Origin: Microcystis elabens FACHB-917
Lineage (GTDB): Bacteria; Cyanobacteriota; Cyanobacteriia; PCC-6307; Cyanobiaceae
NCBI RefSeq assembly: GCF_014698445.1
Contig: NZ_JACJSZ010000014.1
Span: 1 to 64,000, forward strand
Length of the DNA stretch: 64,000 nucleotides
Direction of reading: 5' to 3'
Shown here: piece by piece, positions 2,868 to 3,842 of the stretch
Position numbering within the stretch: position 1 is the stretch's first letter
Layout: every line of letters begins with the position of its first letter
Program-made: the position numbers and the translations under genes
The notes under the pieces: generated by a model
What the model was told of the DNA's origin: nothing
Databases searched by the model: none
What the model saw: only the letters and a program-made list of their open reading frames with translations

Positions 2868-2952
2868 GCCTGACATCCAGATGCAGAAGGCGGGAGCAAA
2901 GGGTTGCTTCTCTGCCGAGATCAACGCCCGCTTCTGATCTGGAGCGTTGGGC
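2868..2952 (+). other. attC-like recombination site 1
   Basis: The 85-base segment starts with GCCTGAC (2868-2874), one change from the RYYYAAC core. It ends with GTTGGGC (2946-2952), a perfect GTTRRRY core. Inside these the two halves pair as in attC sites: ATCCAGATGCAGAAGGCGGG on the left faces CCCGCTTCTGATCTGGAG on the right, with an extra unpaired base in the arm. A small hairpin sits in the terminal loop. The GTT crossover triplet lies 26 bases before the ATG of the TIR gene, the usual short leader of a gene cassette. Secondary structure is conserved more than sequence in attC sites, and this one fits that. Confidence 0.7.
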
Positions 2953-3836
2953 GTCACATTAAAGTCACAACATGAGCCTTGATTTCTTGCAAACAAAGTT
3001 CGAGAAAGCCAATCACTTGGTCAATCTTCTTGTAGCCCATGCCACCGGCGGCACTGCGGATTCGGCCGAGTACGAAGCTCTTCGGATCGAGTTGTTATCG
3101 GATGCGGAGATATCTCCTCTGATGCCGTCGTTCGTCCGAACGAACAGAAATCTTGCCTCGTTCTGGGGCTTCATCAAGGGCAAGTACAGCACCTATGCTG
3201 AGCGTCGAACGTATTTGTCTCAGGAATTTACCGCTCTACTTGATCAACTCGAGTTCGGATCGCCGCGAACAAGTCCAGTGGCTCAGCCTCCGGTTATTGC
3301 CAAGCCAGTGGTCGCAAGGAACAAGCGTAAGGTCTTCATCGTTCACGGCCGGGACAACGAAAGCAAACAAGAGGTGGCTCGCTTCATTGAGAAGGTTGGC
3401 CTTCAGTCGATCATCCTGCACGAGCAAGCAAGTGCTGGCATGACCATCATCGAGAAGATCGAGCGGTACTCAAACGAGGCAGATTTCGCGCTTGTTCTCT
3501 ACACTCCTTGCGACCATGGACGAGGAGTGCACGAGACCAAGATCGCACCGAAGAATCGTGCGCGGCAGAACGTAGTTTTCGAGCACGGTTACCTGATGGC
3601 AAAACTCGGCCGAGAGAATGTATGCGCGTTGGTAAAGGGCGAAATCGAAACGCCAAACGATATTAGCAGCGTGGTGTACGTCGGTTTCGATGCACAAGGC
3701 GCGTGGAAGAGCGAGGTGTCGAAGGAGCTGATTGCGTGTGGATATGACGTGAAGAACTGGTTCTAGCCTTGCTCTCATGCCGCGACTCCCAACGCTTTCT
3801 TCCAGCGGACGCCTTCGCCGCCGCTGAAGTCAAACG
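2947..3836 (+). mobile_element. Integron-type gene cassette carrying the TIR-like gene
   Basis: The element runs from the TTGGGC that follows the crossover G of site 1 to the last G before the crossover of site 2. It holds one gene in the standard orientation, a leader of about 25 bases and an attC-like site right behind the stop. In a circularised cassette the final AAACG would join TTGGGC and form a proper GTTGGGC core facing TCCCAAC, as expected. No integrase gene or attI site is visible in the window, so this would be a cassette without its own integron (CALIN-like or inserted at a secondary site). Confidence 0.7.
2972..3766 (+). CDS. TIR-like nucleotide-binding protein (predicted NADase-type defence effector)
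   Basis: The 264-residue product has a helical N-terminal part (about 1-95), a proline-rich linker and a TIR-like domain (about 119-264) of the type annotated as predicted nucleotide-binding protein containing TIR-like domain (PF10137 kind). The strand-loop KVFIVHGRD (120-128) opens the domain. NVVFEHGYLMAKLGRENV (200-217) supplies the conserved Glu (E204) that is the likely catalytic residue of NAD-cleaving relatives. In CBASS and Pycsar systems, TIR domains of this class act as effectors that deplete NAD once triggered by a cyclic nucleotide. No cyclase, Argonaute or other partner is adjacent, so it either works alone through its N-terminal domain or is a passenger. ATG 2972 is used; the ribosome-binding site is weak. 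Base composition is markedly lower in GC than the core, supporting transfer. Confidence 0.8.
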   Translation: MSLDFLQTKFEKANHLVNLLVAHATGGTADSAEYEALRIELLSDAEISPLMPSFVRTNRNLASFWGFIKGKYSTYAERRTYLSQEFTALLDQLEFGSPRTSPVAQPPVIAKPVVARNKRKVFIVHGRDNESKQEVARFIEKVGLQSIILHEQASAGMTIIEKIERYSNEADFALVLYTPCDHGRGVHETKIAPKNRARQNVVFEHGYLMAKLGRENVCALVKGEIETPNDISSVVYVGFDAQGAWKSEVSKELIACGYDVKNWF

Positions 3837-3842
3837 ATGGGC
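3787..3842 (+). other. attC-like recombination site 2, right junction with the glgB-like gene
   Basis: Twenty bases after the TIR stop, TCCCAAC (3787-3793) begins a compact palindrome. TTCCAGCGG pairs with CCGCTGAAG around a short CG-rich loop, followed by TCAAAC and the right core GATGGGC (3836-3842). The layout and spacing match short classical attC sites closely. The right core has GAT instead of GTT. The bases from 3837 on belong to the interrupted glgB-like gene. This is what recombination at a GWT secondary site would leave: the cassette contributes the G and the target contributes ATGGGC. Confidence 0.72.

Follow-up and report, generated by a model that had tools for sequence, protein, structure and literature searches.

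A mobile integron gene cassette carrying a predicted TIR-domain immune gene in a picocyanobacterium

A 64,000-base window of the picocyanobacterium Microcystis elabens FACHB-917 (bases 1–64000 of C28, a 67,208-base contig in a 3.68-Mb genome of 121 contigs) contains a gene for a TIR-domain protein that is carried alone in an integron gene cassette. What moves is the whole stretch bounded by two G^TT cut points. We consider it likely that this unit is a mobile, single-gene cassette of the abortive-infection type, with an immune function that is predicted. The relevant features of the window are as follows.

351–404, plus strand: degenerate attC-like palindrome, a possible third array site (44 of 58 columns identical with the attC at L016:1745–1800; fold z −1.8).
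789–1091, plus strand: 100-aa open reading frame lying after the degenerate site and before the YHYH gene, from the ORF list (GC 49%; no Pfam match).
1302–2495, plus strand: YHYH-domain gene with an in-frame TAA at 1731–1733 (PF14240, E 6.5e-13 on 1758–2492; GC 50%).
2868–2952, plus strand: site 1, the attC of the upstream cassette, of picocyanobacterial type (covariance models, fold); its R' box, GTTGGGC at 2946–2952, opens the TIR cassette.
2947–3836, plus strand: the mobile unit, one gene cassette of 890 nt (TTGGGC...attC...G), delimited by a second copy in L020.
2972–3766, plus strand: TIR-domain gene, 264 aa (matches to PF10137 and to PADLOC candidate PDC-S35).
2972–3256, plus strand: N-terminal helical domain, residues 1–95, a putative sensor or oligomerization module (AlphaFold2).
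3323–3763, plus strand: TIR domain, residues 118–264, a predicted NADase with R198, N200, E204, and D230 at the active site (fold and sequence alignment).
3787–3842, plus strand: site 2, the attC of the TIR cassette (covariance models), with R'' box TCCCAAC at 3787–3793 and last box GATGGGC at 3836–3842.
3837–4409, minus strand: GH13 (GlgB/TreZ-like) fragment, cut at the cassette edge and with an apparent frameshift near its start too (82% identical to residues 10–201 of a gene in relative G005).

Mobility was established from a second copy of the cassette on a 3,068-base contig (CANHGW010000108.1, locus L020). That copy, which runs from GTTGGGC to AAACG, aligns to the window with 96.1% identity over 891 nt and encodes a protein 95% identical to the TIR protein of the window. 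Outside the cassette, identity over 50, 100, and 200 nt is 24–28% on the left and 27–38% on the right, and the limits of the homology are exactly the two G^TT cut points. Integron integrases exchange strands at G^TT. Because the cassette occurs with the same exact edges in two unrelated contexts, its mobility is demonstrated. The preliminary description had proposed that the TIR gene stands alone in an integron cassette bounded by 2947 and 3836, and the L020 copy, together with an attC model independent of the window, confirms this to the base. The record of the L020 contig names a Bacteroidetes MAG, but ten CRISPR-like repeats in an array and a gene of chlorophyll-binding type (PF00504, E 3.5e-5) make a mis-binned cyanobacterium the probable source. 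Downstream of its cassette is a DUF4160–DUF2442 pair. A decayed copy of the TIR cassette, with stops and a frameshift, was found at 540–1484 of L085 (a record named Cyanobacteria bacterium UBA5018), with GTTAGGC in front and a picocyanobacterial-type attC behind (51.7 bits). Relatives had been named as the place to look for presence or absence of the unit, and the outcome that would have spoken against mobility did not occur: among 60 genomes searched, the host included, a full-length homologue was present in none of the other 59, and six of these matched the TIR part or the N-terminus only. Comparison of the window and L020 TIR genes gave a dN of 0.022 and a dS of 0.107, and the resulting dN/dS of ~0.2 points to purifying selection on the coding sequence.

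The attC sites were recognized with covariance models. Model R1 was built from 23 attC sites in integrase regions of the genus. Three of them come from integrase regions of the host itself, and the window supplied none. The 23 sites were chosen by eye from 93 candidates of palindrome scans, several weaker ones being dropped, and the scans used differing energy settings (DNA in one, default in the others). In the window, background of the palindrome scan included six minus-strand palindromes and a further two on the plus strand. R1 matched only two places in the 64-kb window, both on the plus strand: site 1 with 70.1 bits (E 7e-14) and site 2 with 28.7 bits (E 1.4e-4), where E-values of such covariance models are rough. 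A mixed model, R2, returned the same two sites with 60.5 and 30.1 bits. When R1 was run unfiltered, the opposite strands of both sites scored just 10–12 bits, which resolves the attC orientation. The 3' end of the TIR cassette is thus an attC in gene orientation, recognized by a model to which the window contributed nothing, and a covariance search of the kind proposed in the preliminary description supports both sites. Folding of both strands, proposed alongside it, supported them unequally. Site 1 (2866–2953) folds far better than shuffled sequences (z −4.8 and −4.7 on the two strands, with 0 of 200 shuffles as good), but site 2 (3782–3846) does so just modestly (top strand z −1.6, 16 of 200 as good; bottom strand z −2.8, 2 of 200). 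The covariance model was built because folding alone left site 2 undecided. The degenerate palindrome at 351–404 was matched by neither R1 nor R2.

The two sites differ in type. Site 1 shares 67 identical bases with an 87-base attC of a genus relative (L130:1711–1797). Site 2 is short and unlike the attC type of the genus, which is consistent with a cassette of foreign origin. In the integron box test, GTTGGGC fits GTTRRRY, and TCCCAAC deviates from RYYYAAC at one position, with T in place of the first R. The last box of site 2, GATGGGC, departs from GTTRRRY and has the same bases as the target gene, because it is the junction with the broken GH13 gene. In L020 the counterpart of site 2 scores 37.2 bits and ends in GTTGGAA.

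Homologues were analyzed as the best 80 of 120 relatives from a genome collection, mostly Pseudomonadota, of which 62 are full-length and 18 TIR-only. R1, made without the homologues, produced 18 matches at E ≤ 1 in these 80 loci, all on the strand of the gene and 12 adjoining it; the matches fall within 63 loci, with none in the 17 loci L081–L084 and L087–L099. R2 produced 55 matches at E ≤ 1, again all on the strand of the gene. Seventeen of the 55 were in the training set of R2 (12 gene-adjacent), and the 38 untrained matches include 14 adjacent ones in 13 loci. At 22 of the 80 loci (21 of the 62 full-length and 1 of the 18 TIR-only), an R2 attC is found no more than 100 nt from the gene; 41 full-length homologues have none at that distance. 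Four loci (L043, L046, L054, and L067) have an attC on both sides of the gene. Of the 62 full-length loci, a model-free count showed 25 with GTTRRRY 12–60 nt upstream of the start codon, 23 with RYYYAAC no more than 55 nt past the stop, and 14 with both boxes, where the frequency of each box at random places is 4.6%. On these counts from sequence, the TIR subfamily is a recurrent cassette gene. Homologues also occur on 1150 plasmid records, 179 of them with at least 80% of the query covered, and none of 13 plasmid or viral homologue loci had an attC match. Plasmid homologues that lack an attC indicate that the cassette is not the sole vehicle. Five phage records had a match, the longest at 39.7% over 89% of the query.

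The gene differs in composition from its surroundings, with a GC content of 52.7% and GC3 of 63% compared to 69.5% GC for the window and 91%–92% GC3 for two other window ORFs. Phylogenetic analysis paired the window and L020 proteins (99/98) and placed them next to a MAG from the Comamonadaceae, with a support of 92/93 that does not reach the tool's star. The TIR gene was probably acquired from Pseudomonadota, where the subfamily is repeatedly cassette-borne.

The C-terminal part of the protein is assigned to a TIR family. It matches Pfam PF10137 (CAP12/Pycsar TIR; E 6.8e-38, residues 120–240), and this gene is the sole PF10137 match in the whole genome. The best PADLOC match is PDC-S35, a candidate single-gene TIR system with PF10137 (E 6.3e-75, residues 109–260); another PDC-S35 model covers residues 76–261. 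An AlphaFold2 model from 43 sequences (pLDDT 85, pTM 0.54) is helical to residue 95; after a linker of low confidence, the TIR domain starts near residue 118. A model made without an alignment had a pLDDT of 51 and was dropped. The closest solved fold is that of SfSTING (7un8; VIA-align Z 15.5, 2.7 Å over 129 residues), a SPARTA TIR aligns with a VIA-align Z of 13.4, and Foldseek gave a TIR match at E 1.7e-6. Four residues (R198, N200, E204, and D230) are invariant in the 43 sequences and align with R78, N80, E84, and D110 of SfSTING, in a chain index offset by 8, a value inferred from those same residues. In SfSTING, as described in passages of PMC9402430, the catalytic E84 acts with R78, N80, and the D110 of the dimer mate. 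From fold and alignment, the protein is predicted to be an NADase. The TIR fold and these four residues are shared with SfSTING/Cap12, a CBASS TIR-STING, but the window protein has no STING domain match and carries a helical module before the TIR rather than a sensor behind it.

This N-terminal module is modeled with confidence (block means of pLDDT 83–96 for residues 1–90) and has no match in Pfam at E ≤ 10. In cyanobacteria it occurs in 3 of 292 genomes, the host included. The other two genomes join the same domain to Abi_C (PF14355, E 4e-23 and 2e-25) and not to a TIR domain, in these loci.

L010, 1510–2256: protein with the N-terminal domain and Abi_C.
L011, 1396–2256: protein with the N-terminal domain and Abi_C.

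The N-terminus of one of these Abi_C proteins is 45% identical to that of the TIR protein over 89 aa. A single module found with two effectors would fit a sensor or adaptor, and the comparison suggests that it is swappable.

Taken together, these features allow a mechanism to be proposed. Integrases of integrons (IntI) act on a folded attC at G^TT; here IntI would recombine site 2 in this way and carry the 890-nt circle from site to site. With a leader of just 25 nt, the cassette has too little room for a full promoter, and its expression would rely on the DNA on either side. The protein would be silent until infection, when the N-terminal helical domain may sense a phage cue or mediate assembly. 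Packing of TIR domains would then complete the active site, with E204 joined by D230 of a neighboring subunit in the manner of SfSTING E84 and D110. Hydrolysis of NAD+ would stop growth before phage release.

The host and its genus are well supplied with integrons. Two intact integron integrases were identified in the host genome (459 and 452 bits, compared to a cut-off of 265), along with a third in decayed form.

G000:C45:187557–188488 (host genome): third integron integrase in two frames with stops, near the contig end (profile match).

Integron integrases were found at E ≤ 1e-60 in 28 of 42 genus genomes, the host included. Searching the host genome with R1 returned at least 42 attC matches at E ≤ 1 on 23 contigs, with 150 of 2997 first-look candidates scored; site 1 is among these matches, site 2 is not, and several lie near contig ends. 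At G000:C32:47243–52990 (L017) and G000:C45:132906–138316 (L016), the integrase and attC are on the same strand with the array 3' of intI, which is the reversed-integrase layout. An integron integrase on a Kovacikia minuta plasmid (NZ_CP083584.1, 32045–32980) is 57.5% identical to that of the host genome. Cyanobacteria are among the phyla listed with integrons in passages of PMC8618304.

Genes beside other attC sites of the host were compared to known defense families. Of 44 attC-adjacent ORFs, 30, mostly the longer ones, were scanned singly against PADLOC, and 11 matched families at 1e-10.

L207, L208, L210, L212, L214, L221, L222 (host genome): loci with PADLOC-matching ORFs adjacent to attC.

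The matches comprise a PDC-M24A and PDC-M24B pair, a second PDC-M24B, PDC-M41A, a type II methyltransferase, a kinase (mad6/PD-T4-6), a reverse transcriptase, NsnA with PDC-S15, PDC-S59, and a type I restriction-like protein. As a control, 30 genes from the 54 called window ORFs gave 13 PADLOC family matches, representing at most 13 genes. Enrichment of defense genes beside attC is therefore no more than suggestive, as the control is imperfect and adjacency to an attC does not prove cassette cargo.

The TIR gene is predicted to be an immune gene, and two other functions have to be weighed. One is that the cassette is real but its protein serves NAD or nucleotide metabolism or signaling, or acts as a toxin-like stabilizer of the array. 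Neighbors of the TIR fold include nucleoside deoxyribosyltransferases and DNPH1 (Z 10–11), and the defense role is a prediction. We nevertheless find this alternative unlikely, since passages of PMC9402430 describe related TIR NADases that act in defense, PDC-S35 is a defense candidate, and the N-terminal module recurs with Abi_C. The 11 PADLOC matches beside other attC sites also speak against it, though 30 control genes match 13 families.

A second alternative is a two-part system of the CBASS, Pycsar, or Thoeris type, in which the gene supplies the effector and the nucleotide signal comes from an enzyme encoded elsewhere in the genome. The nearest solved TIR domain is indeed a CBASS effector, SfSTING, and the Pfam family is named for CAP12/Pycsar effectors. 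Nevertheless, NCBIfam equivalogs for Cap12 score 26 and 20 bits compared to a cut-off of 450, the N-terminal domain is without a Pfam match, and among solved structures Cap12 matches the TIR part only. A PADLOC scan of 30 of the 54 window ORFs, and another of two upstream ORFs, returned no family named as a cyclase. Additionally, four homologues stand alone between two attC sites, and neighbors vary in the three plasmid regions viewed. We judge a two-part system of this kind to be improbable, and prefer the reading of the cassette as a self-contained single-gene unit.

The preliminary description's claim of integron packaging held for the cassette, which does not lie in an integron platform: the TIR cassette closes an array that has no integrase beside it and is inserted in a GH13 gene. 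Homologues of this gene were found at 1e-30 in 15 of the 42 genus genomes, the host included. Alignments were made to 11 relatives, leaving out L161, L162, and L163, whose matches are too short to reach the edge. All 11 alignments end at the cassette edge, all 11 relatives are uninterrupted there, and eight read GATGGGC at the site. The GH13 frames have 595–617 residues in 10 of the 11 relatives and 242 in L151, and two genomes have stops upstream in the matched stretch. Secondary-site insertion by integron integrases has GWT as its core. A GATGGGC junction with unbroken relatives thus indicates a secondary-site (attG-type) insertion, and the array edge inside the GH13 gene has the form expected of its product. 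The other half of the gene was found in neither the window nor the genome, where only paralogues occur (54% and 31%). Because this remainder is missing, the insertion's left border stays unproven. The contig starts ~2.9 kb to the left, and the array includes at least site 1 upstream. The YHYH gene is possibly cargo of one or more upstream cassettes; its 5' part (1302–1730) has no Pfam match.

Insertion of cassettes at secondary attG sites was reportedly described by Loot 2024 (Nat Microbiol). The cassette edge in the window is likewise at a G-A-T core in a chromosomal gene; this insertion would be a natural case, differing in that the opposite border is not preserved. The join could instead be an assembly chimera at a contig end, with the cassette really in an ordinary integron array. 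The missing GH13 remainder would agree with this, as would the position of the cassette, less than 4 kb from the start of C28, in a genome where several attC matches lie near contig ends. But the join coincides exactly with the G^ATGGGC position that recombination predicts, the seven bases found in most of the relatives, and we regard a chimera as very unlikely. That the palindromes are chance structures or the ends of another transposon, with the TIR gene an ordinary island gene, agrees with the modest fold of site 2 on either strand and is almost certainly wrong given covariance matches in the right strand and order, integrases across two-thirds of the genus genomes (28 of 42), and the exact-edge copy in L020.

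The cassette was compared to systems already described. Defense genes were reportedly found as attC cassettes by Darracq 2025 (Science), Getz 2025 (Nat Microbiol), and Kieffer 2025 (Science). Judged by their titles and by sentences citing them, the three concern Vibrio chromosomal and mobile integrons, whereas the host here is a picocyanobacterium and the window cassette is outside an integron, in a broken gene. Passages of a Xanthomonas paper (PMC12444791) cite all three and report integron-borne defense for Vibrio cholerae. PDC-S35 as a database candidate and integron-borne defense, published in 2025, are thus already known, and the term "undescribed system" used in the preliminary description was too strong. 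What was observed here beyond the PDC-S35 database entry is the packaging as a cassette, the mobility with exact edges, and the exchange of the effector for Abi_C. Among the papers listed in our literature search, none names PDC-S35 and none treats this TIR subfamily as cassette-borne or describes defense carriage by integrons of picocyanobacteria, in a coverage that mostly excludes subscription journals and preprints.

A broader reading can be offered tentatively. Integrons may spread a self-contained immune gene, consisting of an N-terminal sensor and a TIR domain, across phyla from Pseudomonadota to picocyanobacteria, and the N-terminal domain may be a detachable phage-sensing module that has been joined to both a TIR NADase and Abi_C. 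If so, the integrons of picocyanobacteria whose integrases are reverse-oriented would be maintained as defense libraries, and single immune genes would escape from these libraries into the chromosome through secondary sites, at a cost in metabolic genes. The concept of integrons as anti-phage libraries, developed for Vibrio and mobile integrons, would be extended to picocyanobacteria with base-exact evidence of movement. The cassette offers a short system of one gene, for which the catalytic prediction is specific (E204 and D230), along with an attG-type insertion found in nature. Its small sensor-like domain, shared by two effectors, would give a direct handle on the trigger. The other attC-adjacent ORFs of the host genome are where more defense candidates may be sought.
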